From the NCBI GenBank assembly GCA_008330645.1, contig VLTN01000061.1:152097-216096 (forward strand): a stretch of DNA of 64,000 bases, in the 5' to 3' direction. Source of the DNA: Cafeteria roenbergensis. Lineage: Eukaryota; Sar; Bigyra; Bicosoecida; Cafeteriaceae. Both the position numbers and the translations under genes were made by a program. Below the pieces are notes generated by a model. The model worked only from the letters and a program-made list of their open reading frames with translations. It was not told the origin of the DNA and did not search any database. Positions within the stretch are counted from its first letter, which is position 1. The number at the start of each line of letters is the position of its first letter. Below are positions 8,352 through 64,000 of this stretch, one piece after another.

Positions 8352-8610
8352 GGCAACACCACAGCCTGGCCGCAACGCAAGCCGCCAGGCGGGTGGAGGG
8401 GACGGAGGCTGCGGGCCGGCCGAGTGCCGGCTGGGCTTGCCGGCCCAAGTTCGGCGGCGACTAAGGTGGAGCTGGTGTCCAACTCGGAACCCAGCAGCCA
8501 GAGTCAGAGTCGCACTCTGTCGTGGAGCTTGCTGGAATCGCGCGCGCCTGCCGCCGGCCCCTGATCGCCGCCTGCGCGCACTGGACACCTGGCGCAGCCA
8601 GGCAGGTAGG
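8352..8610. promoter_or_regulatory. Divergent promoter region MIOS / CUE-Smr gene
   Basis: These 259 bp separate the two chosen start codons, so both promoters must lie here or within the 5' exons. I see no TATA-like element or obvious motif. The call rests only on gene arrangement. Confidence 0.45.
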
Positions 8611-43600: not shown

Positions 43601-46600
43601 CTGGCGTCGTCGCTCGACGACGGAACCTGCGAGTTTCCCGATTTCGGGGCACTCGTGGGCCAAGTCAGGGAGCTCGAGGCGCAAATTTTGCCCCTGCAGT
43701 CACGGCTCAACTCCAGTGAATCGCAGCTTTCGGTTGTGCGAGAGAGCCGGGCCGCAGAGGAGGCAAAGCTTCAATCCATCATTGCTCAGCTCTCCGGAAA
43801 CGTGACCGACTTGCAGACACTCGTCTCGTTCTTTAACCGCAGTTGCGGCCCAGGCAGCTTCGACGTCGCTCGCGACCTTGCAGTTGCCGAGGCCAAGCTT
43901 GTGCTGCTTCGCGGAAACGTGTCAGAATTGCAGGCCAAGCTCAACGACACCACCTTGCGCGCCCAGGTCGCAGAGGGCGAAGTCCAGGCCAGCGACGCGA
44001 AGAACGCTCTGCTCCTGAGCGACCTCGCAACGTCCCGGGACCAGGTGGCGAGCCTCACGCAACGCGCCCAGCAGACAGAGGCTCAACTCTTGGCAGCGTC
44101 GGCGAACAACTCGCTGCTCGCCGCTGACCGCTCGGCGTGGAGAGCTCAGGCCCTGCAGCAACAGGATCGCGCGGATGTGGCAGAAGCGGACGCCCAGTCG
44201 GCGGCCGTGAACAACTCGGCCCTGGCGAGCGAGCTGGAAGCGTTGCGCGCACAGGCTTCAGCCTTGCTGGCTCGCGCAGAAGCAGCCGAAGCGACGGCGA
44301 CTCAATATCTCGCGCAGATTGCAGCTCTGCAGGCATCCAACGACGTTTTGGCACTGACGTCGAACTCAACCCAGATGCACTTGGCCGCGAGACTCGCTAA
44401 CGCGACGAGAGACAACACTGAGCTAGCTCGCCTGCTCAACCAAACGAGGCGAGAGCTTGAGGCAACGTCCTCAAGCTGCTCTGGGGCCCACGGAGGAAGC
44501 TTGTCGCCAGTGGACCCGTGCCCGCCTGGAGGCGACGTCAACTGCACCGATCTTGCCACAAGCGGCGCGGCATGCACCTCTGGCGGTGCCTGTGCCAGCG
44601 GGATCTGCACCAATGGACAATGTGCCGCGGCGACTTGCTCTGACGGCGTTCGCCAGGGAAGCGCCGGCTCCAGTCACTACGAGACGGACACCGACTGCGG
44701 CGGGGATTGCAGCCCATGCCGGGCCGGCGGGCGGTGTTCCTCGGTGGGCGACTGCCAGGCCGGGCTCATCTGCTTCCAGAGCCTGTGCCAGGCCGATCCG
44801 TTCTTGGATTCTGGAACCGGCCAGGGCGGCGGCGTGGTGGTGCCTCAAGTGGACAACTCGACAATGAACCTCGCCGATCTGCGCCCTTGCGTGCTCTCCG
44901 CTCAGTGCCGCTCGCGCGTCTGCGTCAGGGTCACTGACGGAACCGGCCAGACGGAGCCACCTTCGGCCGAAGCCCCTGGGCTTTGCGCTCCCGCAGCGCT
45001 CGACGACGGAGTGCTCAATGGCGACGAGGCGTGCGTGGATCGCCTGCCCGGTACCCGCTCCTGTGGTCTCGCTGAGCCTTGCTCCGCCACCTCAGACTGC
45101 AGCACCGGCGGCGCTTGCCTTGACGGCACGTGCCGCGCCCCCACCTGCACCGACGGTGTGCTGGACCCGCTTCACGAGACGGACGTCGACTGCGGCACCT
45201 CCGGGGATCTGCTGCCGACCAGCGGATCGGCCTGCTCGACCTGTCAAGTCGGAGCCGCGTGCGAGGCGGACGACGACTGCGCTAGCGGGACGTGCCTGTC
45301 GGGTGTGTGCTCTGCGCCGCCCTCATGCGACAACGGCGTGCGGGATGGCAGCGAGACTTGCGTCGACGGCGGGGGCGCTGACTGTGCCCCGTGCACACCG
45401 CTGGCAGCTTGCCTGGTGGGCTCAGACTGCGACTCCGGCGTGTGCAACCAACACGCCAACGTTTGCGAGCGGCCCACGTGCTCGGACGGTGTCATGAACG
45501 GCGACGAAACCGGGGTGGACTGCGGCGGCTCGTCGGGCTGCAGCCGCTGTGTCACCGGCGACCGCTGCACCAGCGGCTCGGACTGCGCGTCCAGGTCCTG
45601 CCAGCTCGGGTTCTGCGCCGCCCCCACCTGCTCAGACGGGATCCGTCAGGCGGACGAGGCCCCGGGCGGCGACTGCGGCGGGCCGCGGTGCTCGCGCTGC
45701 ACGGCAGGTGTGTCCTGCGCGACATCGGACCAGTGCGAGGGCCAGTGCGTGGCCGGCGTGTGCCAAGCGCCAAGGTGCGACAACAGGGTGCTCGACGGCG
45801 CCGAGCACGACGTTGACTGCGGCCCCGAGAGTTCCGGCTGCCCAAGGTGCACGGCGGGCCAGTTGTGCCTGAGCGGCTCGGCCTGCCTCGGCGGCACATG
45901 CACGGACGGCCGCTGCGCTGCCCTCTCTCCCGAGGCCATGCTGAACTTTTCGGTGTCAGCAGGTGGCGGTTCTTCCGCCACTGATCGAGTGTGCCCGCTT
46001 GGGCAGGGCACGTGCGGGGGCTTGTGCGGTCCTTGCAGCGCCGGCAAGAGCTGCGCAAGCTCTGGAGACTGCGCAAGTGGTCTCCGCTGCTCGTCCCGCG
46101 TGTGCGTCGCCACCTGCGAGGGCCTGTGCGGCAGCGCGGGCTGCCCCAAGTGCGAGGCAGGCCAGTCTGCCCAGACCGGCGACGCGTGCGTCTCGGGCCT
46201 GCTGGATGCCAGGACGCTCACTTGCGCGCTCCCGGACCACTGCACCAACGGCCGGAAGGACCCAGACCTCGGCGAGACGGCCGTGGACTTTGGCGGCCAG
46301 TGCGGCTCCCTTCGCTTCGACGGCGCCCAGTGCCGCGTCGCGAAAGACTGCTTGAGCGGGTTTTGCCACCCCACACGAGCCGTGTGCTCGCCCAAGCATT
46401 GTGCCGACGGTGTTCGATCGGGCGACGAAACCTGCGTGGACGGCGGTGGGTCGTGTCCCTCTGGCTGCGCGCCGCGGAGCGCTTGCCTCAAGGCGACCGA
46501 CTGCACTGTCGCCGGGTCCCACTGCACGGGTGGCCTTTGCTCGGTGCCCAGCAACTGCTCAAACGGGCGCAAGGACCATGGCGAAGTGGCCGTCGATGTT

Positions 46601-49600
46601 GGCCCGAGCTGCGGGCCTACTCCGGCGGGCGGCGTCTGCTCTGCCTCCGGCGAGTGCTCTTCGCTCGATTGCCGCTTCCCCTTCGCCGGGGCTCGGCTTG
46701 GCACCTGCGGCGAAGGGGACTGCTTTGACGGCGTCTGGCAGCGCCAGCGGGAGGCGGACCTCGACTGCGGGTCTGCCTGCGGCAGGAGCAGGCTTTGCGC
46801 TGTGTACGCTCGCTGCTCCATCTCGGGCGACTGCGAGTCGGGCAGATGCGCCGGCGGGGCCTGCCAGCCTGCGCTGACCTGCGTGCCTGGCCAGTGTGGC
46901 GGCAAGTGCCCGCCTTGCCCGCTGGAGATGCCGTGTAGCACCGCCACCGACTGCCTGAGCGGCAACTGCGCGTTCGGGATGTGCGCCGCAGCGGCGCCCG
47001 GGCAGGACGCAGCGGGATGCAGCGGCTCCGGCTCCCTCACGGTGGACGCGGGCGACCAGTCGCAGCAGCCCGGGCTGGGCTTCTTGGTGGACGAGACAGC
47101 CGTGGTGCAGCCCGGCGTGCCCTACGCTAGCAGCATGACGCCGTCGTCGGGTCCGTCCGGCCCCACCTCCAGTGTCCGCTTCTACGGCGGGGCCTTCGAC
47201 GTGTCGCCCACCGCAATCTTCCGCACAGTGGTTGCGAGCCCCGCCACGCGGGCCCGCCTGCCCGGGTCGGCGTCCGGCACGTGCATGCCTGCCGGCGATT
47301 CCTTCGTGGAGTGCGGGGTCCCGTCCCACTCGCGCGCCACGGTGGTGCTCGCGGTGGAGTACTCGGCGTCGGGATCAGTCGACGGGCCGTGGCTTCGCGT
47401 GCAGCCCTTCTACTTCAGCACGGGGCGCTACCGCATCACCGGCCGAGCAGGCGCCGTCACGGGCCTCCGCATCACGTCGAGCCCCGCGTCGCTGGTCCAG
47501 GGCTCCCCCTTGCTGCCGGCGCCGGCCGTGTCGCTAGTTGATGACTTTGGCGCCGTAGTGACCACGGACTCCAGCACGATCGTTCGCGTCTCGGTGTTCT
47601 CCACCTTCCTCGAGCAGCAGGTCAGCGGGCTTCAGGCAACTGCTGGGTCAGACGGGTCCGCGACTCCGCAGGCCTCCAGGGCACACGACGGCGTGGCGAC
47701 GTTTGAGGGCCTCAGCGTGGCGGCGGGCAGCCAAATCATCGGGCACGGTCTGCGCCTCGTGTTTGAGGCCCACGGGTGCGCTGGCGCAGGCGCGATCGGC
47801 GCCGCCACGGACCTCATGCGAGGATTCGCGAAGCTCCCCGACGCCAGCCAAGACGAGTCGGTCGCCGAGTGCGAAGTACTGGACTCTGGCGGGCGCTGCT
47901 GCGAGGCCCCTGCAGCCCTTGATGCGTGCGGCATTTGCTCGACGGCAACAGGTGTGAGCGAGGCCACCTGCGGAATCCGGATCGACGTGCCAGTCGTGGT
48001 CGCCCAGGCTGCGGGCGCCGGCGCGCCGGCATCGAGCGCGCAGCTGCTCCCCGCCGAGATCGCGCGTCGCATGCAAGTTGCCGTCGGCAATGTGGCTGGC
48101 TTCCCGACGGCGGCGACTGGCTCCGCAAGCGTGAGCGAGGCCGGGACCATCGGCGGCGTTCCCCTCGCCGCAGCGTCGAACGGGGGCACAGCCGCTGTCT
48201 CCGCCGAGCAGCCTCGAGGCGCGGGCGAGCAGCTCGTCGTGTCTGTGCTCGTGCCTCCTCCCGCCGGAGGCTGGCCCAGCGCTGGCCCCAACAGCCGCGA
48301 AGAGGTGGAGCAGCGGCTGCTGGGCGCGACGACCGACCCTGGCTCGGCGCTGTTCGACCAGAGCGCCGCCAGCAGCGATCCAGCCCTCGGGGACAGCTCT
48401 CTCAGCGTCCTGCCTGACGCGTCGCAGGCGGCCCCCGTGCTGAGCGGCGGGGTTGTGTGCTCCGGCGCATGCTCCGCGATGGACATTGCCGCCGGCTGCA
48501 TGCTCTGCGCCGACGACCCGGCCGGCCTGACGTCCAACGCCACGCTCGCCGCAACCCACTGCGCTGCTGCGGGCGGCCAGGGCGAAGTCGCGCCCGACGG
48601 CCCCACCGATCCCGAAGGCGGCGGCGGCGGCGGCGTGCCAGAGGGCAACGACGACCCCGCAGCATCCTTGCCCCTGGCCCAGTTTGGCGCCGTCTCTCCC
48701 TCGGACAAGGCGCTTGCCAACATCCATGCTGCAGTCGTCGCTACCACGGCAGTCGTGGCCCTTGCGCAAGGAGCGGTGGACGCGGTGCGCGCTGCCCGAG
48801 CAATGGGGCCACTGCACTCCGGCCCCGGCTCCGGCGTCGCGGCCGCCCTCCCGGGCCTGGCAGCCGTTGGGATGGGCCTCTGGGACGTCGCAGACCACGG
48901 CCAATTCACGACGATGCTCTCCCTGCTTCACGTCGCCTCGCCGCCAGTCGTGGCCCACACCGGGCAGATGGTCGTGTCTGCTAGTGGCCTGGTCCCAGGG
49001 GCTTGGAGCATCCTGGAGCCGGTTCTCGGGCCGATGGTCGGCCCCGCACCCGCAGAACCTCCGCTGCAGGGCGCATCGCCCAACGCCACTTCCACGCCGA
49101 CTCAGTCGCAGGCCTCGTGGCAGCGGTTCCCCGACGACCCCGCGGCAACCGGAGACGCTTCGGCTCCCGCGTCCGTCCGCATCCTTTCGTCCTTCGTGGG
49201 GGCTAGGCCGGAGGAGCTCCTGGCTCTCGCGCTCGCGCTCTTCGTGCTGGCCGAGCTGCTGGTGGCGGTCGTGTTCGGCGTCGCTTTGGTGATCGCTTGC
49301 CGCGCGCCGGCGCTGGCACCGGTGCCAGCGCCGGCACCGGCGTCCACCCGCACGCACAACCCGATGCGCAAGGCGGCCAGGGGTCCAGGTGGGGCGCCTG
49401 CGTCAACGTCGTCGGGCCCCGTTGCCGTCTCCGCAGTGGCGGCAGTCGGCAACAGGATGTCGTCGGCCATGCTGCTCGTCGCGACCATTTTCCTGGGTGC
49501 CGTGACGGTCGCAGCCCTCTTCGGTATCTCGGCGCCGTCGAGCAGCGCAGCTGCGGCAACGGGCGGCTGGCTCGTGCTGGCCGTCTTCTCCGGCGGGCTG

Positions 49601-50626
49601 GCGGCCCTCTGCTGTGCAGTGATCCTGCGGGCCAAGCCCTGCGCCTGCACGGCCTCTCTGTGCGCCTCTTGCCGGGGAGGGGTGGGCGAGCCTGGCCAGG
49701 GCCCAGACGTTCACGCTTATCAGGGCAAGGGCGCGCGTCTCGTCGACGGCACTCGCCGCTTCGACCACGCCAGGGCCGGCGCGCTTTGGTGGCTGGTCAT
49801 CGTGATGGTCGCCGACCGCATCGCGAGCGCTCTCCTGCTGGTGCTTCTCTCGTCACGGCCCGGCGCCCAGACCGGCGCCATGCTCGCCAAGCAGGTGCTC
49901 CTCCTCGCCGCGGTGCTCTCGCTCCGCCCAGGAGCCAACCCCGCGGCGCAACTCGTCACCATCATCATCACCGCGTGGCGCGTGCTCGTTCTCGCGCTCA
50001 TGCTGGCCTTCGTCCCGCCGTACTCGTCGACCAACGTGGCCACCCTCCGCGCGGTGGGCGAGGTGGTCGTGGTGCTGCAGATCATCTGCGCCTTCGGCTT
50101 GCTGGCCTTGGTGCTGCTCCGCTTCGGCCCTGTCGCTCGCTTCGCTGCTGCTGCCACTGCGCCCTGCTGCGCGGCGAGCTCGCGGCGCAGCATGCGCAAG
50201 TCCATCGCCGGCCCCGACGCAGCCAGCGGGAATTCAAAACAGAGCCTGGTGTCCGCTGCCGGAAGCGCAGCATCGCCTCAGCCGGCCGAAATGCTGACCG
50301 CGTTGCCAATGGCAGCAACGACGAACCCAATGCAGCGACACGGCACCACCGTTTCTACGAGAAGAGCCGACCCCCACGAGGCAACGCCTCATGGCAAAGG
50401 GCCGGCGGAGCGAAAGGCGTTTGCTCCAACGGAGGGAGCGAAAGCACCCGGTGAGACGGGGCTTAGCGTCTTCGTTGGACACGGCGCCAGACAAGACGGA
50501 AAACTCCTGAACAAAGGCTCTTCCGATGCAGCTGGGCGTGCTGGTGCAGGAAGGCTGCGGCCACTTGACAACCCAATGCTGAAACCCCGGCGCCTGGCCA
50601 AGTCTCCTCACCGAGAGGAGGCATAA
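34608..50626 (+). CDS. Giant repeat-containing cell-surface protein with multi-spanning C-terminus (one 2-bp frameshift)
   Basis: About 5,339 codons if the extra 2 bp at about 41388-41393 are ignored. As given, the frame from 34608 ends at 41615 and the downstream frame continues to 50626. The signal peptide is MGRLQLLAAISLLAFVPARVGA. Residues 108 to about 2,700 are five full 491-residue units plus a partial one. Each has a Gly-rich beta-solenoid-like half (GGGSGGSLLVVASRLSGTG, SANGGAG) and a Ser/Thr/Val half. Next come three Cys/Asn modules of the NYxxxAxxDDGSC type (43390-43630), a coiled coil (43650-44480) and 13 or so modules of the CxDGVxNGDExxVDCGG type with two to three Cys pairs each (44500-46990). 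A TIG-like segment (47100-47550) and about seven hydrophobic spans (49200-50130) follow, then a basic cytoplasmic tail. No introns are evident. I cannot name a family; adhesion or sensory receptor is a guess. Confidence 0.8.
34929..42720 (+). repeat. Tandem array of 1,473-bp coding units (5.3 copies)
   Basis: Units start at 34929, 36402, 37875, 39348 and 40821, with a partial last unit at 42296-42720. Spacing is exactly 1,473 bp (491 codons) for the first four and 1,475 bp for the fifth. Units 2-4 differ from each other at only a handful of bases. Homology begins at GGCGCCGGGTTCACGAGCGG and ends in the sixth copy just after GGCGGCCGCGTGGC. Because 1,473 is a multiple of three, unit number can change without breaking the frame. 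Confidence 0.97.
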
Positions 50627-50950: not shown

Positions 50951-51588
50951 TGAACATCGTGGGCGGGGGGCCGAAAACTCGCGTCACCATACCACACACT
51001 CGATTCACAGACTCATCAAGAACCAATCCAGCAACTCCATCACCGATGAATCACAAACCCCGCCAAACCCGCAATCCCAAGTCTCAAGTCCCAGATCCCT
51101 CCCATCACACTGCCTCGAGTCGCCACTCAGCCGCCCCTGCTCACCGCATACGCTCCACCTGCTGCCGCAGGTACTGCGTCTGCCCGATCAGCTGGGTCGC
51201 CAGTCCCTTGGCGATGACCTCGTTCAGCCTCGACAGCCAGCGGAAGGCCCAGCGCGCACGCTCCCTCGGCCGGTCGCCGAAGGCCGTGTCCGCCACCTTC
51301 TTGAGGAAGGCGAAGGCCGCCGGTCCCATGCGTCCCGTGGTCGTGACGACGAAGGGCACAATGGAGCTCATGTTGTCCTTTGTAGCTGAGCTCTTCTTGT
51401 ACTCCCTCATCTTGTCCTTCTCACGGCGCTCGAGAAAGGCGTCCATGCTGTGCAGGCCCTGCGTCACGAACTTGGCCACCCCGATTGTCTGCGTCCCCGC
51501 CGCCGAGTAGACCTGCACGGCATCCGCTCTCAGCTGCGCGTCAGCTGCTGTCTCCTGGCTGGCTGGAGCTCCGGCCGCACTGGCCGCC
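50951..51588 (-). mobile_element. Non-LTR retroelement copy A: 5'-truncated, internally deleted
   Basis: Minus-strand copy of the same element as copies B and C. The 3' end and 190-bp untranslated tail are shared (TGAACATCGT, then ACCATACCACACACTCG on the + strand). It keeps the last 110 codons (MDAFLERREKDKMREYKKSS to the stop at 51141-51143) and a short upstream piece around RADAVQVYSA. About 1.3 kb between these pieces is missing, including the zinc finger and the PD...D endonuclease residues. Homology stops near 51588. It is more diverged from B and C than they are from each other, so probably older. The frame happens to remain open through the deletion. Confidence 0.85.
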
Positions 51589-51713
51589 GAACCCAGGGAA
51601 ACACACGCAGCCCCGGGTCGAACGAGCATCGTGGCCGCGTGGCTCTGCACCAACGCCTGGCCGGTCCACATTTCCCAATCAGCTCTCGTCCGCCACCCTG
51701 CGCATCTGACAGC

Positions 51714-54700
51714 ATGGCCACCCTTCCTATGCAGGAGGGTGCAATGGCCGGCGCGCTTTGGGAGGCGGCAAAAGCCGGGAACACCGCCGAGGCCAGCAGG
51801 CTGCTGGATGCGGGCGCGCCGGTCGACTGTAACAACGACGCAGACGTGAGCGCTCGTTGTCACGGCGTGCGTTGCAGCCAGTCCTGCGTCTCTCTCCCAC
51901 CATGCGAGGCTGCTGCCTTCGAGTTGGGCCGCGCGCGGGTGCCAGGAGCTGGCCGTGGGCCGCGGTGGCAATGGGGGCAGCATCACTGGCTGCTGGCGAG
52001 CGGAAGGCGTCTCCGGTGGCATGCCGTGACGGCTGCGGTTGTTGATGGCACAGAGCCTCGCAGAACGGATTCACGGCGCTCATTGCCGCTGCATCCGGTG
52101 GCCACACTGACGCGGTGGAGCTGCTGCTGGACCGCGGCGCCGACCTGGAGGCCAAGGGCCGCGTGAGATCGGCGGGCGTGAGTTGCTGCGCGACGGGCCG
52201 CGCGAGGGCGTTACAGGCAGGCCGGGGGGGCGGGTGGGGGCTGGCGCTGACGCGTCGGGGCGTCGTGGCCGTGTGGCGGGCCGGCGTGGGATGTGGCGGT
52301 GGAGTTTGGCAGGAATGTCGGTAGGGGAGCGATGGTGCGCCGAGGTGCGTTGACATGCGGGCCTGCTTGGTCGCAGTATGGTGTTACGGGTCTGATGGAG
52401 GCGGCATCCGGTGGCCACACGGACACGGTGGAGCTGCTGCTGGACCGCGGCGCCGACCTGGAGGCCAAGGATGAGGTGAGATCGGCGGGCGTGTGTTGCT
52501 GCGCGACGGGCCGCGCGGGGCGTCTTGGTCAAGCCGGGGGCGAGGGGGGGCTGGCGGTGACGTGCCGGGGCGTCGTGGTCGTGTAGCGGGCCGGCGTGGG
52601 AGGCGGCGCTGGAGTTGGGGGGGGCAGGTCGGTAGGGGAGCGATGGTGTGCCGAGGTGCGTTGACATGCGGGCCTGCTTGGTCGCAGTATGGTGTTACGG
52701 CTCTGATGGCGGCGGCATCCGGTGGCCACACTGACGCGGTGGAGCTGCTGCTGGACCGCGGCGCCGACCTGGAGGCCAAGGATGAGGTGAGATCGGCGGG
52801 CGTGAGTTGCTGCGCGACGGGCCGCGGAGGGCGTTACAGGCAGGCCGGGGGGGAGGGGGGGGGGCTGGCGGTGACGCGTCGGGGCGTCGTGGCCGTGTGG
52901 TGGGCCGGCGTGGGAGGCGGCGCTGGAGTTGGGGGGGGCATGTCGGTAGGGGAGCGATGGTGCGCCGAGTAGCGTTGACATGCGGGCCTGCTTGGTTGCA
53001 GTATGGTGTTACGGCTCTGATGGCGGCGGCATCCGGTGGCCACACTGACGCGGTGGAGCTGCTGCTGGACCGCGGCGCCGACCTGGAGGCCAAGGATGAG
53101 GTGAGATCGGCGGGCGTGTGTTGCTGGGCGACGGGCCGCGGAAGGCGTTACAGGCGGGCCGGGGGGGAGGGGGGGGGGGCTGGCGCTGACGTGCCGGGGC
53201 GTCGTGGTCGTGTGGCAGGCCGGCGTGGGAGGTGGCGCTGGAGTTGGGCGGGGCCATGTCGGTAGGGGAGCGATGGTGCGACGAGTAGCGTTGACATGCG
53301 GGTCTGAGGCATCGCAGCATGGTGCTGCGGCACTTGTTGAAGTCGCCCCCGGTGCCCACACTGACGCGGTGGAGCTGCTGCTGGACCGCGGCGCCGACCT
53401 GGAGGCCAAGGGCCGCGTGAGTGCGGCGGGCGTGTGTTGCTGCGCGACGGGCCGCGGAGGGCGTTACAAGCAGGCCGGGGGGGCGCGGGTGGGGCTGGCG
53501 GTGACGTGCCGGGGCGTCGTGGTCGTGTGGCGGGCCGGCGTGGGAGGCGGGGCTGGAGTTGGGGGGGGCATGTCGGTCGGGGAGCGATGGTGCGCCGAGG
53601 TGCGTTGACATGCGGGCCTGCTTGGTCGCAGGATGGTGCTACGGCGCTTGTTGAAGCTGCGCTAGGTGGCCACACGGACACGGTGGAGCTGCTGCTGGAC
53701 CGCGGCGCCGACCTGGAGGCCAAGGGCCGCGTGAGATCGGCGGGCGTGTGTTGCTGCGCGACGGGCCGCGGAGGGCGTTACAAGCAGGCCGGGGGGGCGC
53801 GGGTGGGGCTGGCGGTGACGTGTCGGGGCGTCGTGGTCGTGTGGCGGGCCGGCGTGGGAGGTGGCGCTGGAGTTGGGGGGGGCATGTCGGTAGACGAGCG
53901 ATGGTGCGACGAGGTGCGTTGTCATGCGGGCCTGCTTGGTCGCAGTATGGTGCTACGGCTCTGATGGCGGCGGCATCCGGTGGCCACACGGACACGGTGG
54001 AGCTGCTGCTGGACCGCGGCGCCGACCTGGAGGCCAAAATTGTTGTGAGAGCGGCGGGCGTGTGTTGCTGCGCGACTGGCCGCGTTGGGCGTCTCGGGCG
54101 GGCCGTGGGGGGAGGGGCGCGGCTGGCGGCGATGTGCCGGGGCGTCGTGATCGTGTGGCGGGCCGGCGTGGGAGGCGGGGCTGGAGTTGGGGGGGGCATG
54201 TCGGTGGAGGAGCGATGGTGCGCCGAGGTGCGTTGACATGCGGACCTGCTTGGTTGCAGTATGGTGCTACGACGCTAGCTGTGGCGGCATCCGGTGGCCA
54301 CACGGACACGGTGGAGCTGCTGCTGGACCGCGGCGCCGACGTGCAGGCCAAGGATGAGGTGAGATCGGCGGGCGTGTGTTGCTGGGCGACGGGCCGCGCG
54401 GGGCGTCTCGGGCGGGCCGTGGGGGGAGGGGGGGCTGGCGGTGACGCGTCGGGGTGTCGTGGCCGTGTGGCGGGCCGGCGTGTGATGTGGCGGGCCGGCG
54501 TGTGATGTGGCGGTGGAGTTTGGCAGGCATGCCGGTTAGGGGAGCGATGGTGCGCCGAGGTGCGTTGTCATGCGGGCCTGCTTGGTCGCAGTATGGTGCT
54601 ACGGCTCTGATGGAGGCGGCATCCGGTGGCCACACGGACACGGTGGAGCTGCTGCTGGACCGCGGCGCCGACCTGGAGGCCAAGATTGTTGCGAGATCGG

Positions 54701-57700
54701 CGGGCGTGTGTTGCTGCGCGTCGGGCCGCGTGGGGCGTCTCGGGCAGGCCGTGGGGGAGGGTGGGGGCTGGCGCTGTCGCGTCGGGGCGTCGTGGCCGTG
54801 TGGCGGGCCGGCGTGGGAGGCGGGGCTGGAGTTGGGGGGGGCACGTCGGAAGGGGAGCGATGGTTCGACGAGTAGCGTTGACATGCGGGCCTGCTTGGTT
54901 GCAGTATGGTGTTACGGCTCTGATGGCGGCGGCATCCGATGGCCACACTGACGCGGTAGAGCTGCTGCTGGACCGCGGCGCCGACCTGGAGGCCAAGGAT
55001 GAGGTGAGATCGGCGGGCGTGAGTTGCTGCGCGACGGGCCGCGCGGAACGTTACGGTCGAGCCCGGGGCGGGGGGCGGGGCTGGTGGTGACGTGCTCGGG
55101 CGTCGTGGTCGTGTGGCGGGCCGGCGTGGGATGTGGCGGTGGAGTGGGGGGGGCATGTCGGTAGATGAGCGATGGTGCGCCGAGGTGCGTTGACAAGCCG
55201 GTCTGCTGGGTCTCAGAATGGTGCTACGGCTCTGATGGCGGCGGCATCCGGTGGCCACACGGACACGGTGGAGCTGCTGCTGGACCGCGGCGCCGACCTG
55301 GAGGCCAAGGATGAGGTGAGATCGGCGGGCGTGAGTTGCTGGGCGACGGGCCGCGCGAGGGCGTCTCGGGCGGGCCGTGAGGAGAGGGGCGCGGCTGGCG
55401 GTGACGCGTCGGGGCGTCGTGGCCGTGTGGCGGGCCGGCGTGGGATGTGGCGGTGGAGTTTGGCAGGCATGTCGGTTAGGGGAGCGATGGTGCGCCGAGG
55501 TGCGTTGACAAGCCGGTCTGCCGGGTCGCAGAATGGTGCTACGGCACTGATGGCGGCGGCATCCGGTGGCCACACTGACGCGGTGGAGCTGCTGCTGGAC
55601 CGCGGCGCCGACGTGCAGGCCAAGGATGAGGTGAGATCGGCGGGCGTGTGTTGCTGCACGTCGAGCCGCGCAGGGCGGCACGGGCAGGCCGGGGGGGAGG
55701 GTGGGGGCTGGCGCTGACGCGTCGGGGCGTCGTGGTCGTGTGGCGGGCCGGCTTGGGTTTAGGCGTTGGAGTGGGGGGGGCATGTCGGTTAGGGGTGCGA
55801 TGGTGCGCCGAGGTGCGTTGTCATGCGGGCCTGCTTGGTCGCAGGATGGTGCTACGGCTCTGATGGCGGCGGCATCCGGTGGCCACACGGACACGGTGGA
55901 GCTGCTGCTGGACCGCGGCGCCGACGTGCAGGCCAAGGATGAGGTGAGATCGGCGGGCGTGAGATGCCGCGCGACGGGCCGCGCGGGGCGTCGCGGTCGA
56001 GCCCGGGGCGGGGGGCGGGGCTGGCGGTGACGTGCTCGGGCGTCGTGGCCGTGTAGCAGGCCGGCGTGGGAGGCGGGGCTGGAGTTGGGGGGGGCATGTC
56101 GGTGGAGGAGCGATGGTGCGCCGAGTAGCGTTGACATGCGGGCCTGCTTGGTTGCAGTATGGTGTTACGGCGCTAACTGTGGCGGCATCCGGTGGCCACA
56201 CGGACGTGGTGGAGCTGCTGCTGGACCGCGGCGCCGACGTGCAGGCCAAGGATGAGGTGAGATCGGCGGGCGTGAGTTGCTGCGCGACGGGTCGCGTTGG
56301 GCGTTGCAGGCGGGCCGGGGGGGAGGGGGGGTTGGCAGTGTCGCGTCGGGGTGTCGTGGCCGTGTGGCAGGCCGGCGTGGGAGGCGGGGCTGGAGTTGGG
56401 GGGGGCATGTCGGTAGAGGAGCGATGGTGCGCCGAGTAGCGTTGACATGCGGGCCTGCTTGGTTGCAGTTTGGTGTTACGACGCTAACTGTGGCGGCATC
56501 CGGTGGCCACACTGACGCGGTGGAGCTGCTGCTGGACCGCGGCGCCGACGTGCAGGCCAAGGATGAGGTGAGATCGGCGGGCGTGAGTTGCTGCGCGACG
56601 GGTCGCGTTGGGCGTTGCAGGCGGGCCGGGGGGAGGGGGGGTTGGCAGTGTCGCGTCGGGGTGTCGTGGCCGTGTGGCAGGCCGGCGTGGAGGCGGGGCT
56701 GGAGTTGGGGGGGCATGTCGGTAGAGGAGCGATGGTGCGCCGAGGAGCGTTGACATGCGGGCCTGCTTGGTTGCAGGTTGGTGCTACGGCGCTGACTGTG
56801 GCGGCATCCGGTGGCCACACGGACGCGGTGGAGCTGCTGCTGGACCGCGGCGCCGACGTGCAGGCCAAGGATGAGGTGAGATCGGCGGGCGTGAGTTGCT
56901 GCGCGACGGGTCGCGTTGGGCGTTGCAGGCGGGCCCGGGGGAGGGGGGGTTGGCAGTGTCGCGTCGGGGTGTCGTGGCCGTGTGGCAGGCCGGCGTGGGA
57001 GGCGGGGCTGGAGTTGGGGGGGGCATGTCGGTAGAGGAGCGATGGTGCGCCGAGTAGCGTTGACATGCGGGCCTGCTTGGTTGCAGTTTGGTGTTACGAC
57101 GCTAACTGTGGCGGCATCCGGTGGCCACACTGACGCGGTGGAGCTGCTGCTGGACCGCGGCGCCGACGTGCAGGCCAAGGATGAGGTGAGATCGGCGGGC
57201 GTGAGTTGCTGCGCGACGGGTCGCGTTGGGCGTTGCAGGCAGGCCGGCGTGGGAGGCGGCGCTGGAGTGGAGGGGGCATGTCGGTAGGGGAGCGATGGCG
57301 CGCCAAGGCGCGGTTACATGCGGGCCTGTGGCGTCGCAGGGTGGTGCCACGTCGCTTGTTCGGGCTGCATCCGGTGGCCATAAGGACACGGTGGAGCTGC
57401 TGCTGGACCGGGGCGCCGACATGGAGGCCAAGGGCCGCGTGAGTGCGCCGGGCGTGTGTTGCTGCGCGCCGGGCGGGCGCGGGGCGTCTTGGTCAAGCCG
57501 GGGGCGGGGGAAGGGCTGGCGGTGACGCGTCGGGGCGTCGTGCTCGTCTGGTGGGCCGGTGTGGGATGTGGCGGTGGAGTTTGGCAGGCTTGTCGGTAAG
57601 GGGAGCGATGGTGCGCCGAGGTGCGTTGACAAGCCGGTCTGCTGGGTCGCAGAATGGTGCTACGGCACTTGGTCGGGCTGCATCCGGTGGCCATACTGAC

Positions 57701-57751
57701 ACGGTGGAGCTGCTGCTGGACCGCGGCGCCGACGTGCAGGCCAAGGATGAG
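51714..57751 (+). CDS. Ankyrin-repeat protein, one repeat per exon, at least 20 exons (3' end missing)
   Basis: Exon 1 is 51714-51845 (MATLPMQEGAMAGALWEAAK, a capping ankyrin repeat). Nineteen 99-nt exons follow, starting at 52064, 52377, 52688, 53002, 53318, 53632, 53946, 54260, 54592, 54905, 55217, 55532, 55845, 56158, 56469, 56777, 57087, 57340 and 57653. All are phase 0, so each encodes exactly one 33-residue ankyrin repeat of the form YGATALMAAASGGHTD then VELLLDRGADLEAKDE. The visible product is 671 residues of stacked repeats with no other domain, a scaffold for protein binding. Introns are 154-233 nt, mostly 212-216, and begin GTGAG; exceptions are GC-AG after the exon at 54592 and GTGAAT after the last. 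The gene is cut by retroelement copy B within the intron after 57751, so the C-terminus is absent or lies beyond the window. Expression is unknown. Confidence 0.82.
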
Positions 57752-57936
57752 GTGAATGCGGCGGGAGTGTGTTGCTGCACGTCGAGCCGCGCAGGGCGGC
57801 GCGGGCAGGCCGGGGGGGAGGGTGGGGGCTGGCGCTGACGCGTCGGGGCGTCGTGGTCGTGTGGCGGGCCGGCTTGGGTTTAGGCGTTGGAGTGGGGGGG
57901 GCATGTCGGTTAGGGGTGCGATGGTGCGCCGATGAA
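52064..57936 (+). repeat. Tandem array of about 312-bp exon-plus-intron units
   Basis: Nineteen head-to-tail units, each a 99-nt ankyrin exon plus an intron. Introns share long blocks, including GAGCGATGGTGCGCCGAG and GCGGGCCTGCTTGGTCGCAG at the acceptor end, and are about as alike as the exons. Subfamilies are visible: exons ending DLEAKDE, DVQAKDE or DLEAKGR, and acceptor ends of the TGCTTGGTCGCAG, TGCTTGGTTGCAG or GTCTGCTGGGTC type. One intron (57186-57339) is 60 bp shorter, and one (54359-54591) has a 20-bp internal duplication. Confidence 0.93.
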
Positions 57937-60492
57937 TGAACATCGTTGGGGGGGGTCGAAAACTCGCGTAACCATACCACACACTCGATTCACAGACTCA
58001 CCAATCACCAATCCAGCAACTCCATCACCAATGAGTCACAAACCGCGCCAAACCCACAATCCCAAGTCCCAAGCCCAGATCACTCCCATCACACTGCCTC
58101 GAGTCGCCAATCAGCCGCCCCTGCTCACCGCAAACGCTCCACCTGCTGTCGCAGGTACTGCGTCTGCCCGATCAGCTGGGTCGCCAGTCCCTTGGCGATG
58201 ACCTCGTTCAGCCTCGACAGCCAGCGGAAGGCCCAGCGCGCACGCTCCCTCGGCCGGTCGCCGAAGGCCGTGTCCGCCACCTTCTTGAGGAAGGCGAAGG
58301 CCGCCGGTCCCATGCGTCCCGTGGTCGTGATGACGAAGGGCACAATGGAGCTCATGTTGTCCTTTGTAGCTGAGCTCTTCTTGTACTCCCTCATCTTGTC
58401 ATTCTCACGGCGCTCGAGAAAGGCGTCCATGTTCTGCAGGCCCTGCGTCACGTAGGACTTGCTCACCGCCGAGGTGATCTGCACGTCGACGAGACGGGTG
58501 GTCTCGAAGTCGACGTGCACCCGCAGGTCCGGTCGCTTGCGCGCGGCCTCGCTGGACCCCGGCTGGGATCCAAAGCGCGCCTGACCGTCCTGCCAGCTGG
58601 AGGGCTCCACCACCGACTGCAGCCCCGCCGAGCGCACCGCCGCGTGCAGGACGTCGCGGACGTCGTTGTGCGCCCGGATGGTGGAGCCCTTGCCGCAGCG
58701 GCAGCGCGCCAGGTGGTGTGCCACGCCGGAGACCCCGCCGATGTGGACGGTGCCTCTCGCGGTGGTGTCTCGCTGCATGCACGCGCAGTTGATCGACACG
58801 CCGTCCGGCACCACGTGGTCGGCCTCGGAGGCTCCGATGCGGTAGCGTTCCACCACCGCGAACTCCTCGTCCGTGAGCCCGCGGGGTCCCATCATCGTGT
58901 TGCGGAGCCAGTAGTGTGTTCCCGGCACGCATGCCTCTCGGAACGCGACCAGGTCGCTCATGACGCGGAACATGGCCGGGTCATCGATGTTGGCGACACG
59001 CTTCTCCGTCGTGCCCTTGGCCAGCGCCTCGGCCCTGCAGCGTGCTGTGCAGGCCCTGCGCGCCTTGGCCAGACGGCGCAGGAAGACGCACTCGTGCTTG
59101 ATGCGCAGCATGTCATCGTGGTGCAGCACCATCTTGCGCTGCCAGGGCGCCTCGGTCTGCTCGTTCGCCCGCGCTGTCACCCCGTCGCCGTACAGGCACT
59201 TGCGGAGCTTGGCCTTCAGCTCGCCCGGCAGCTTACCCAGGGTGTCGGGCAAGAAGCCCTCGAACCCTGTCGCTGCGGCCAGGCAGCGGGCTCCCTTGCA
59301 TGCCCTGATGAACTCCTCCACCAGGTTTGCAGTTGCCTCCATGTCATCCGACGACTCGTCGTCAGATCTGAGCTCCATCATCGCCTCCAGCGCCAGCTCC
59401 TCGATCTCGGCGCGCAGCTCTTCCAGGCCCTCGACAGCCCCCGCGATGTCCGACCTCCACACGTGCGCCAGCTGGTAGCGCTTCTTCACCCTGGCGTCAT
59501 GAAGGTCGGCCTCCTTGCCCACGACGCAGTCCTTGTCCGGCCTGAAGTACCGTGCCTCGGTGCAGGCGTCCTTGTACTCCTTGCTGTCCCGCTCGTAGTC
59601 CCGGTAGGCTCCCTTGGCGACCTCCTCGCATCGCAGCAGGATGTCGCCCACCTCCTTGGTCGCATCGCTGCGGTCTGAGCGCTTCAGCGAGCTCCTCACG
59701 AGTTTCTTGAGCGAGATGCCCTTCCAGTTGGGGTCGTTGCCGTCCGCGTCCGCGTCGGGTCCGTCCCTGGCCAACCCGATCGCCGGCGTTCGCCTGACCG
59801 AGTAGACCTGTGCCGCATCCGCTCTCGGCTGTGCGGCATCAGATGTCTCTTGGCCGGTTGGAGCGCCAGCCGCACTAGCTGCCGCTGCGCCGCCGCCGCT
59901 CGTCGTCATCTCGGTCGCCGCTCCCGCCGCGCTGGCGGCAGCCGCACCTCCGCCGACCGTCTGGCCTCCGCTTGTCGGTGTTGGCTGATGCCCCGGTTCA
60001 GCCGCTCCCCCCGTACCGCTGACGAGCCAGCCGTCCAGCGTACCTGCAAGCTGCTGCCCGTGCGCCGGCCCCTCCTCGCAGTCCTCCTTGGACTCGCTCT
60101 CTCCGACCGCCGGGTGGTCCACCCACGGCGTGCCGCCCGCTGCAGCAGCCGCCGCACCCGACTCATCCTCCGCTTCCGCCTCGCCGGCGTTGGCTGGTCC
60201 CGCTCCGGCACCACTCCCCGACGCCGCTTCGCCTCCGCCTCCACCAGTGCCGGGTCCGTCGAGGGCCTCCTCCGGCGGTGGTGCCATCTCGAACCGCCCT
60301 TTCCGCATGTCCCGAACGGCCTCGATGAAGCCCGCTGTCGCCTCGAAGCGGAACTGCGCCACGCCAGGCAGGCCCATGCCCCCGGCTTTGCAGCCCCTGC
60401 TCAGCATCTTTGCCAGCCTCATCTGAGCGTAGCCTCCCTTCTTCAAGGCCGGGTTGGACGCTGCCGATGCGAGCCGAGTCACACCGTCGGCT
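57937..60492 (-). mobile_element. Non-LTR retroelement copy B: 5'-truncated
   Basis: 2,556 bp, minus strand, 3' end at 57937 (possibly preceded by one extra TGAA at 57933-57936). It is inserted in the intron after the ankyrin exon at 57653-57751, replacing the expected acceptor end. It matches copy C position for position with no indels and only five base differences. The 5' end stops at 60492 in the middle of the coding region. Three bases (60493-60495) separate it from the 3' end of copy C. Confidence 0.93.
58125..60492 (-). pseudogene. Retroelement ORF fragment: post-RT region and restriction-like endonuclease (copy B)
   Basis: A 789-codon open fragment lacking the reverse transcriptase and any start of its own; the frame runs on by chance into the tail of copy C. 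It holds an Ala/Gly-rich linker, then the C-terminal endonuclease region: CACM...HHLARC (CCHC-type finger), RAHNDVRDVL, KRPDLRVHVDF..RLVDVQIT (PD..D motif) and KMREYKKSS with IVPFVITTTGRMG. These are hallmarks of the restriction-like endonuclease of R2/NeSL/CRE-type elements, which nicks target DNA to prime reverse transcription. The endonuclease residues look intact, but without RT this copy cannot move by itself. Confidence 0.85.
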
Positions 60493-60495
60493 GAT

Positions 60496-63400
60496 TGAAC
60501 ATCGTTGGGGGGGGTCGAAAACTCGCGTAACCATACCACACACTCGATTCACAGACTCACCAATCACCAATCCAGCAACTCCATCACCAATGAGTCACAA
60601 ACCGCGCCAAACCCACAATCCCAAGTCCCAAGCCCAGATCACTCCCATCACACTGCCTCGAGTCGCCAATCAGCCGCCCCTGCTCACCGCAAACGCTCCA
60701 CCTGCTGTCGCAGGTACTGCGTCTGCCCGATCAGCTGGGTCGCCAGTCCCTTGGCGATGACCTCGTTCAGCCTCGACAGCCAGCGGAAGGCCCAGCGCGC
60801 ACGCTCCCTCGGCCGGTCGCCGAAGGCCGTGTCCGCCACCTTCTTGAGGAAGGCGAAGGCCGCCGGTCCCATGCGTCCCGTGGTCGTGATGACGAAGGGC
60901 ACAATGGAGCTCATGTTGTCCTTTGTAGCTGAGCTCTTCTTGTACTCCCTCATCTTGTCATTCTCACGGCGCTCGAGAAAGGCGTCCATGTTCTGCAGGC
61001 CCTGCGTCACGTAGGACTTGCTCACCGCCGAGGTGATCTGCACGTCGACGAGACGGGTGGTCTCGAAGTCGACGTGCACCCGCAGGTCCGGTCGCTTGCG
61101 CGCGGCCTCGCTGGACCCCGGCTGGGATCCAAAGCGCGCCTGACCGTCCTGCCAGCTGGAGGGCTCCACCACCGACTGCAGCCCCGCCGAGCGCACCGCC
61201 GCGTGCAGGACGTCGCGGACGTCGTTGTGCGCCCGGATGGTGGAGCCCTTGCCGCAGCGGCAACGCGCCAGGTGATGTGCCACGCCGGAGACCCCGCCGA
61301 TGTGGACGGTGCCTCTCGCGGTGGTGTCTCGCTGCATGCACGCGCAGTTGATCGACACGCCGTCCGGCACCACGTGGTCGGCCTCGGAGGCTCCGATGCG
61401 GTAGCGTTCCACCACCGCAAACTCCTCGTCCGTGAGCCCGCGGGGCCCCATCATCGTGTTGCGGAGCCAGTAGTGTGTTCCCGGCACGCATGCCTCCCGG
61501 AACGCGACCAGGTCGCTCATGACGCGGAACATGGCCGGGTCATCGATGTTGGCGACACGCTTCTCCGTCGTGCCCTTGGCCAGCGCCTCGGCCCTGCAGC
61601 GTGCTGTGCAGGCCCTGCGCGCCTTGGCCAGACGGCGCAGGAAGACGCACTCGTGCTTGATGCGCAGCATGTCATCGTGGTGCAGCACCATCTTGCGCTG
61701 CCAGGGCGCCTCGGTCTGCTCGTTCGCCCGCGCTGTCACCCCGTCGCCGTACAGGCACTTGCGGAGCTTGGCCTTCAGCTCGCCCGGCAGCTTACCCAGG
61801 GTGTCGGGCAAGAAGCCCTCGAACCCTGTCGCTGCGGCCAGGCAGCGGGCTCCCTTGCATGCCCTGATGAACTCCTCCACCAGGTTTGCAGTTGCCTCCA
61901 TGTCATCCGACGACTCGTCGTCAGATCTGAGCTCCATCATCGCCTCCAGCGCCAGCTCCTCGATCTCGGCGCGCAGCTCTTCCAGGCCCTCGACAGCCCC
62001 CGCGATGTCCGACCTCCACACGTGCGCCAGCTGGTAGCGCTTCTTCACCCTGGCGTCATGAAGGTCGGCCTCCTTGCCCACGACGCAGTCCTTGTCCGGC
62101 CTGAAGTACCGTGCCTCGGTGCAGGCGTCCTTGTACTCCTTGCTGTCCCGCTCGTAGTCCCGGTAGGCTCCCTTGGCGACCTCCTCGCATCGCAGCAGGA
62201 TGTCGCCCACCTCCTTGGTCGCATCGCTGCGGTCTGAGCGCTTCAGCGAGCTCCTCACGAGTTTCTTGAGCGAGATGCCCTTCCAGTTGGGGTCGTTGCC
62301 GTCCGCGTCCGCGTCGGGTCCGTCCCTGGCCAACCCGATCGCCGGCGTTCGCCTGACCGAGTAGACCTGTGCCGCATCCGCTCTCGGCTGTGCGGCATCA
62401 GATGTCTCTTGGCCGGTTGGAGCGCCAGCCGCACTAGCTGCCGCTGCGCCGCCGCCGCTCGTCGTCATCTCGGTCGCCGCTCCCGCCGCGCTGGCGGCAG
62501 CCGCACCTCCGCCGACCGTCTGGCCTCCGCTTGTCGGTGTTGGCTGATGCCCCGGTTCAGCCGCTCCCCCCGTACCGCTGACGAGCCAGCCGTCCAGCGT
62601 ACCTGCAAGCTGCTGCCCGTGCGCCGGCCCCTCCTCGCAGTCCTCCTTGGACTCGCTCTCTCCGACCGCCGGGTGGTCCACCCACGGCGTGCCGCCCGCT
62701 GCAGCAGCCGCCGCACCCGACTCATCCTCCGCTTCCGCCTCGCCGGCGTTGGCTGGTCCCGCTCCGGCACCACTCCCCGACGCCGCTTCGCCTCCGCCTC
62801 CACCAGTGCCGGGTCCGTCGAGGGCCTCCTCCGGCGGTGGTGCCATCTCGAACCGCCCTTTCCGCATGTCCCGAACGGCCTCGATGAAGCCCGCTGTCGC
62901 CTCGAAGCGGAACTGCGCCACGCCAGGCAGGCCCATGCCCCCGGCTTTGCAGCCCCTGCTCAGCATCTTTGCCAGCCTCATCTGAGCGTAGCCTCCCTTC
63001 TTCAAGGCCGGGTTGGACGCTGCCGATGCGAGCCGAGTCACACCGTCGGCTTCCCGGCCCAGGAGCGCCCACCACGCCTCCCGCCTTGCGTGCTCGTCCG
63101 GCAGCCCCCGAACAAGCGCCTCGATGGCCTTGGACATGGCCTCACGGAAGCCGTCCTCGGTCACCGTGCACATCTCGTCCGAGAGCGCGTGGCCGATCGC
63201 ATCCAGCTCCGTCTTGTGCGCCACCGCCGACAGGTTGGCCAGCAGCGCCGCATGGAACACCGCCAGCTCCTGGCCCGCCGCCGCACCCGCTGCTCTGTGC
63301 AGGTAGCTGAACTTCTGGCCCACCACCGACAGCAGCAGGTGGTGCGCCCGCTTGAGCCCGCAGACCTCGATGCCCGCGAGCAGGCGCTCCGCGGCCGGCC

Positions 63401-64000
63401 CGAACTCCTTCTCCAGTCGCTTCATCGAGTGCTCAAGTGCCACCTCCGGCGGGAGTTCCTCCCCTACAGGACACTGCAGCACCGCCACGCTCCGTTCGGT
63501 GAGGTGGCACCCCTCCAGCACCGAGGGTGGGGACCCTGGATCGTCCCTACTCCGCTTCATCGCCCGCCGAATTCTGGCTTTGGTTCTCTCGAGCTGTCCT
63601 CGCTTGCACAGCACCTGGGTCTTGTCGGCGTTCATCCGCAGCCCCACCGTGCTGAGCCGCTCGGCCAGCATCTGGGCTGCCTTGAAGGCGCTCCCTCCTC
63701 GGGCCCACGAGCGTCGTGTCGTCGGCCATCTGCAAGATGAGCACATCTGGGAAGGCGCGCCTCACCTCGTCCACCAGGGGGTGCACTGCGATCGCAAACA
63801 GTGCGCCCGCTGCCGGGTCGCCTTGACGCACGCCCCTGTTGGACTCCAGCTCAAAGACCTCGCCCTCGTCCGTGGCAAAGAGGAGCGGGCTGGACGAGCC
63901 GTACAGCGCCAGCACCGCCGGCACGAGCTTTCTCGTCAACCGCCGCACCTCCTCGATCATCGCGCGCCTGGAGACGGAGTTGTAGGCGTTGGCCATGTCC
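60496..64000 (-). mobile_element. Non-LTR retroelement copy C (RT plus restriction-like endonuclease), runs off the window
   Basis: The 3' end is at 60496 and the element continues past the window edge. It has a 188-bp 3' untranslated region without a poly(A) tail, then the long coding region. The presence of reverse transcriptase with a C-terminal restriction-like endonuclease, and absence of LTRs, integrase or RNase H in view, places it with early-branching LINE-like elements (R2/NeSL/CRE group in the broad sense). Exact clade cannot be set without a tree. Confidence 0.92.
60684..63999 (-). pseudogene. Reverse transcriptase / endonuclease polyprotein of copy C, frameshifted (5' partial)
   Basis: The upstream piece (63999 down to about 63700) has RT motifs in order: DMANAYNSVSRR (first catalytic Asp, at the window edge), NRGVRQGDPAAGALFAIAVHP, and MADDTTLVG, where the catalytic box has Met in place of the usual Tyr or Phe. 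The frame then shifts by one base at about 63690-63705 (near a GAGGAGGG tract on the coding strand). The second piece continues as RT thumb (LRMNADKTQVL), a linker and the endonuclease, with the same CCHC, RPD..D and KMREYKK motifs as copy B, to the stop at 60684. A one-base sequencing error would restore a complete protein; otherwise the copy is dead or uses frameshifting. Confidence 0.85.

Follow-up and report, generated by a model that had tools for sequence, protein, structure and literature searches.

The ankyrin gene in the 64,000-nucleotide stretch of DNA analysed here (the window) is best explained as a truncated gene from a large, recombining and probably subtelomeric family of C. burkhardae (Cafeteria, formerly C. 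roenbergensis), a marine single-celled predator, and to this explanation as a whole we assign a probability of about three in four. Each gene of the family starts with an N-terminal cap (N-cap) exon, after which come some 7 to 28 or more exons of exactly 99 nt, each encoding one ankyrin repeat and each separated from the next by a copy of one ancestral intron of about 210 nt. With all intact exons in phase 0 and with the same splice ends, gain, loss or swapping of units would keep the reading frame. The arrays would grow, shrink and be reshuffled by unequal recombination and by gene conversion, whose breakpoints would fall in exons as well as introns, and selection would preserve the ankyrin framework and permit or drive variation of the binding-surface residues. 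The exon junction falls between what we take to be ankyrin positions 2 and 3, presumably inside the binding loop, and each new exon junction would also create a new binding loop. The arrays mostly point to contig ends, which are probably chromosome ends, and a telomere-style retrotransposon would have capped several that were broken mid-array, the one in the window included.

The window gene and its genome-wide family

As the preliminary description had claimed, the window holds 19 exons of exactly 99 nt, all open, in phase 0 and encoding one 33-residue ankyrin repeat apiece when read at fixed positions. However, that description treated a single gene made of these exons, and it overlooked exon 1 (51714-51845), the retrotransposon junction near 57933 that truncates the window copy, the family of such arrays on at least 20 contigs and their outward facing at contig ends. 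The features are listed in window coordinates.

50951..51600, - strand: third copy of the retrotransposon, 5'-truncated, upstream of exon 1; right-hand limit approximate
51714..51845, + strand: exon 1, N-terminal cap, 44 aa, ending at a GT donor in phase 0
51846..52063, + strand: intron 1, 218 nt, GT-AG
52064..52162, + strand: repeat exon 1, one ankyrin repeat, open 99-mer
52163..57652, + strand: 18 homologous introns of 154-233 nt, lying between the 19 repeat exons
52377..52475, + strand: repeat exon 2
52688..52786, + strand: repeat exon 3
53002..53100, + strand: repeat exon 4
53318..53416, + strand: repeat exon 5
53632..53730, + strand: repeat exon 6
53946..54044, + strand: repeat exon 7
54260..54358, + strand: repeat exon 8
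54592..54690, + strand: repeat exon 9, followed by the sole GC donor
54905..55003, + strand: repeat exon 10
55217..55315, + strand: repeat exon 11
55532..55630, + strand: repeat exon 12
55845..55943, + strand: repeat exon 13
56158..56256, + strand: repeat exon 14
56469..56567, + strand: repeat exon 15
56777..56875, + strand: repeat exon 16
57087..57185, + strand: repeat exon 17
57340..57438, + strand: repeat exon 18
57653..57751, + strand: repeat exon 19, the final one of the array
57752..57932, + strand: intron 19, shortened by the retrotransposon; its exact limit is uncertain to within a few bases
57933..60491, - strand: non-LTR retrotransposon copy, 5'-truncated, its 3' end abutting intron 19
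60492..64000, - strand: second head-to-tail copy of that element, reaching the contig end

Seventeen of the 18 window introns are GT-AG and one, intron 9, is GC-AG; the consistent phase and GT-AG ends of a spliceosomal exon array were found for 19 of 19 exons. The product predicted from the 20 exons (N-cap and 19 repeats) has 671 residues. Reading repeat exon 19 on into the cut intron 19 adds 28 residues and then meets a stop at 57836-57838, so the truncated gene can still end in frame. Independently, TRF reported a unit of 314 nt in 16.5 copies (score 7124) in the window array, and GC content across the window is 64-77% per 2-kb step. The joined exons exceeded the Pfam cut-off for ankyrin repeats (PF00023/PF12796), with Ank_2 at E 5.2e-72 and Ank at E 8.6e-72 in a profile search of the first 341 residues (N-cap and 9 repeats). 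In this same part of the product no NACHT or NB-ARC domain was found by Pfam, which returned solely ankyrin families and a sub-cut-off DUF5681; the search covered the product from exon 1 onward, and any exon further upstream would lie outside it. The nearest solved structure by sequence, among the best 60 of 457 distinct chains, was Monoextended DARPin R12 (6mol_A, E 2.5e-135).

The introns of the window array are about as conserved as its exons, as had been proposed, with a mean pairwise divergence of 0.133 versus 0.134. They are indeed copies of one another, but the term "near-identical" does not describe their average, since pairs lie between 0.5% and 22.9% apart. Cafeteria strains average 1.67-1.89 introns per gene according to PMC6972860, the paper behind four published strain assemblies, and by that figure a gene with at least 19 introns is exceptional in this species.

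Elsewhere in the window, a 1473-nt tandem repeat (34700-42070) has three copies 99.9% identical (at 36173, 37646 and 39119), flanked on either side by diverged neighbours (about 88% and 67-69%), within long ORFs on both strands, and gave no Pfam match in the part searched. An ORF of 3301 aa at 40721-50626 (+) shows a TRP channel match towards its C terminus that is marginal (28.7 bits against a cut-off of 28.5). Another of 1894 aa at 3372-9056 (-) has MIOS WD40 and zinc-ribbon matches and is presumably a GATOR2-type protein.

The assembly searched comprises 36,303,456 bases in 167 contigs, the window contig being C61. A photosynthetic alga was rejected as the host, since the search for chlorophyll a/b-binding proteins gave no match while its control in Synechococcus elongatus was positive. 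Used as DNA queries, a single exon gave at least 40 matches and a single intron at least 184, and the intron matches listed span at least 20 contigs (C61, C60, C136, C20, C155, C68, C15, C4, C8, C51, C88, C55, C31, C43, C129, C10, C2, C74, C79 and C29). The N-cap query gave 93 matches genome-wide at E ≤0.001, the weaker of which need not belong to intron-type arrays. Among the matches listed, 20 of 20 contigs have an N-cap match no more than about 800 nt upstream of their intron matches, and a homologous N-cap is present in all 11 arrays read. These arrays were read partly or wholly, and several of their unit counts are cut by contig or stretch ends: C61 19, C60 16, C136 8, C88 10, C15 28 (followed only up to the end of the stretch taken), C20 19, C10 14, C129 14, C29 13, C43 10 and C79 7.

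The 11 arrays contain 158 units, 156 of them whole. At fixed positions, using the exon profile alone, 149 of the 156 are 99-mers with an open frame, preceded by AG and followed by GT or GC, and the splice ends themselves number 154 AG, 148 GT and one GC; without the near-duplicate C129, 138 of 142 exons are intact. A looser scan near the expected sites found AG for 156 of 156, GT for 155 and GC for one, figures that arise partly by construction, and the fixed-position count is preferred. In seven of the 156 units (one each in C60, C88, C20 and C10, and three in C129) the frame is broken or the splice ends are misplaced; some of these defects may be assembly error and some real decay. Retention of the intron would break or stop the frame for 120 of 147 introns, and from their sequence the array introns are predicted to be removed by splicing.

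The exon core had no exact match in viral contigs (viral_contigs) and an intron stretch had none in bacterial and archaeal contigs (genome_contigs); phage records gave 20 matches, each below 60% identity. We found no prior description of these array genes in the open-licence literature searched. The word "ankyrin" occurs 0 times in the C. burkhardae papers PMC6972860 and PMC8547959, and in a third, PMC7852580, which reports a short-read transcriptome of strain E4-10, it appears once, as an enriched domain of one gene set, with gene structure unmentioned in the passage concerned. The genome also has long intronless ankyrin arrays, for example on C28, C126 and C162, the latter two seeming to be near-copies.

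Surface variation and turnover of units

Variation was analysed over 138 intact exons, C129 being left out, with 121 distinct repeat sequences. In the ankyrin numbering that we assume, the most variable positions are 10, 13, 2, 3, 14 and 5. At the six positions which we take to be those randomised in DARPins (2, 3, 5, 13, 14 and 33), mean entropy is 2.04 versus 0.69 elsewhere (permutation p 0.0005), position 33 being conserved in these arrays. These data support the location of the variable residues on the ankyrin binding surface, as in intronless ankyrins of the same genome, and the array proteins would have a binding function. Within arrays, surface pN is 0.334, other pN 0.105 and other pS 0.180. 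In 10 of 10 arrays surface pN is higher than intron divergence, and in 10 of 10 it is also higher than rest-of-exon pS, barely so in C60 (0.208 versus 0.206); rest-of-exon pN is below pS in nine arrays and equal to it in C88.

The strongest rival explanation is that this variability is neutral and reflects the standard constraint on ankyrin repeats, relaxed at the loop positions, in place of diversifying selection. Positions rank in a similar order in the intronless ankyrins of this genome (Spearman 0.60 for the 22 repeats that align well and 0.58 for all 79, over 28 covered positions), which raises the odds of this rival; the same similarity weakened surface entropy as a hallmark of the intron-type family alone, a candidate that we rejected. 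Surface-codon pS is raised as well, to 0.338, approximately equal to surface pN, and local mutation or conversion could therefore add to selection. Neutrality is at odds, however, with a surface pN that lies above intron divergence in every one of the 10 arrays and above rest-of-exon pS overall, and we would give it slightly less than an even chance.

A second rival holds that these are decaying, satellite-like or pseudogene arrays, formerly coding and now unspliced and drifting. The loss of the normal 3' end of the window copy and the seven broken units are what decay would produce, but exon length has stayed fixed in 149 of 156 units while window introns vary from 154 to 233 nt, and the deficit of rest-of-exon pN in all arrays but C88, where it equals pS, likewise makes decay improbable.

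The recombining family that we favour agrees with the earlier proposal that the unit of duplication is exon plus intron, neutral to the frame, and such units are turning over inside arrays. Among 131 units with introns (C129 and broken units were left out of the distance comparison), 121 have their nearest intron relative, and 96 their nearest exon relative, within their own array. Mean intron divergence is 0.147 within arrays and 0.234 between them, and mean exon divergence 0.161 and 0.206. The co-duplication of each exon with its intron, also proposed earlier, is borne out in four of 10 arrays, where exon and intron distances correlate (C60, C15, C20 and C10, p <0.01), and fails in the window array (r 0.16, p 0.14), which with C136, C88, C29, C43 and C79 makes up those uncorrelated at 0.05. 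From the 980 within-array pairs, the 68 with introns no more than 2% apart have exons 9.1% apart, and the 35 with exons no more than two differences apart have introns 7.4% apart. This decoupling of exon and intron similarity is symmetric, which indicates that the units are mosaics. Whole units were therefore copied and, then or alongside, sequence was exchanged inside them, and recombination is the mechanism we infer.

Two other candidates were rejected. Exons outpacing their flanking introns (7.6% versus 2.7% in 23 disjoint pairs with alike flanking introns) had been considered as proof of selection, but choosing pairs by exon gives the mirror result, which argues for reshuffling and not selection. 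A G-quadruplex as recombination trigger was dismissed as an effect of composition only, since coding-strand motifs occur in 79 of 146 introns, versus a mean of 84 in shuffled introns.

The C10 and C129 arrays look near-allelic. Their 5' flanks are identical at 888 of 889 positions and their 3' flanks are 97.8% identical over 2.0 kb. The pair differs in unit order, and C129 contains two garbled units, for which reason it was not counted as proof of variation in unit number.

Contig ends and the retrotransposon

All 14 intron-type arrays lying within 20 kb of the end of contigs of at least 60 kb face outward. Arrays are interior on three of the 20 contigs (C4, C55 and C10) and on small contigs in three cases (C136, C155 and C129). 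Of the 93 N-cap matches, 36 could be located no more than 20 kb from an end, of which 32 face outward and 4 inward. This count assumes six contigs (C9, C14, C52, C59, C71 and C94) to be long, and it has a bias, since wherever the assembly breaks inside an array the 5' part faces outward by construction. The remaining matches are 19 interior, 4 on small contigs and 34 on contigs of unknown length. The contig ends that bear arrays are probably chromosome ends, although repeats break assemblies and contig ends therefore need not be chromosome ends.

The same property of repeats underlies a third rival, in which unit number, order and position at contig ends come from repeat misassembly and the end polarity is meaningless. 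The two garbled units of C129 and the PacBio coverage of 13-45x given in part of PMC6972860 fit such an artefact. Yet interior arrays broken in assembly should also leave inward-facing remnants at other contig ends, and there are none among the 14 terminal arrays; the exon-intron anatomy moreover recurs in 11 separately read arrays, C10 and C129 being near-copies, and we consider an artefact of this kind to have little chance of being right.

The element next to the window array encodes a reverse transcriptase (RVT_1, E 7.9e-8, in the terminal 300 bases of its second copy), in line with a HeT-A-like telomeric retrotransposon. Its window ORFs gave no Pfam match, and of three pieces searched solely the reverse-transcriptase piece matched. 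The 3' end of the element has 49 matches listed (the best 40 of 302 first-look candidates were scored); 45 could be placed and 4 could not, and 43 of those placed share the same polarity. The HeT-A-like orientation, with the 3' end inward, was found at 25 of 26 contig ends, the exception being the right end of C85. None of the 45 placed matches is interior, and a looser motif scan of the stretches read found one interior copy, on C20. C3, C17 and C31 have the element at both ends, and C74:1-9000 holds a head-to-tail stack of three. The HeT-A-like combination of head-to-tail arrangement, single polarity, inward 3' ends and 5' truncation was thus found in full.

Six of 13 array 3' ends examined run directly into the element, which cuts the array in an intron on C61, C79, C136 and C68 and in an exon on C31 and C51. 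On C31 and C51 it is the same exon that is cut, with the two break points some 20 nt from each other, which is what separate breakage and healing events would produce. The C43 array stops about 350 nt short of an element; C60, C88, C20 and C29 extend to the contig end; C10 and C129 have a common apparent natural 3' end, the last C10 exon reading into a stop. A specificity of the retrotransposon for the ankyrin intron was rejected, since the junctions vary and include exons (C31, C51), the element itself and other sequence. An upstream copy of the element, 761-763 nt ahead of the N-cap match, is common to C60, C61 and C136; copying between contig ends is therefore probable for these arrays as well.

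The telomere motifs (TTAGGG)4 and (TTTAGGG)3, searched with at most one mismatch, are absent from the assembly, and a control for this search recovered a GC-rich hexamer repeat, its window copy included. Telomerase_RBD gave no match in a search that had no working positive control. The end stacks are a candidate retrotransposon telomere. A more speculative proposal, which we regard as doubtful, is that of a chromosome-end diversity system, in which outward-facing arrays, intron copies serving as homology for reshuffling, distal trimming and retrotransposon re-capping would change the repertoire of recognition proteins.

The weakest rival, introner-like mobile introns inserted in each repeat and alike as copies of a transposable intron, would account for introns homologous across arrays (divergence 0.234 between arrays), but we judge it very improbable given that the intron occupies the same codon position in each intact repeat that was read, that the N-cap lies just upstream on all 20 contigs, that 121 of 131 units have their nearest intron relative inside their own array, and that none of the matches listed places the same intron in another gene context, let alone in many unrelated genes.

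Known systems and biological meaning

Animal ankyrin genes have exons that match single ankyrin repeats, with introns that are not known to be related in sequence; the Cafeteria genes share the repeat-sized exons and differ in having introns copied from one another, inside arrays and across them. With DARPins they have in common near-consensus 33-residue repeats and variation at mostly the same surface positions, on the set as we take it and with position 33 conserved here, whereas the Cafeteria arrays are natural, far longer and diversified by the genome.

The closest precedent that we found is in fungal NLR genes, whose ANK, TPR and WD40 repeats of high internal conservation show repeat-number polymorphism and a proposed concerted evolution (Dyrka et al. 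2014, PMC4986451). As there, the tandem repeats are highly alike and variability lies on the concave ankyrin binding surface. Unlike the fungal repeats, which belong to NOD receptors, each Cafeteria repeat has its own exon, no NOD domain was found in the part searched, and the arrays lie at contig ends; the word "intron" is absent from the consulted text of PMC4986451. For the end stacks, the comparison is with the telomeric non-LTR retrotransposons HeT-A/TART/TAHRE and with GilM/GilT of Giardia, described in passages of PMC5537684 and PMC10088271 as head-to-tail stacks of one polarity. The Cafeteria element resembles them in both respects and in its 5' truncation and the direction of its 3' end toward the interior, and differs in capping inside host ankyrin exons and introns.

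Repeat-protein genes of rapidly changing length and surface are known from fungal immunity-like receptors. In the Cafeteria genes every module occupies an exon of its own, accompanied by its own intron copy, and the family has at least 20 arrays, mostly at contig ends that are probably chromosome ends. These arrays let one test introns as recombination spacers that protect the reading frame, and the caps that the retrotransposon forms within exons and introns resemble a direct trace of chromosomes that broke and healed. The arrays also let one test whether fast-changing binding proteins are maintained in a unicellular grazer for which a giant virus is known. If the chromosome-end diversity system is true, the targets of recognition could be, for example, the giant virus of C. 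burkhardae, prey bacteria or conspecific cells.
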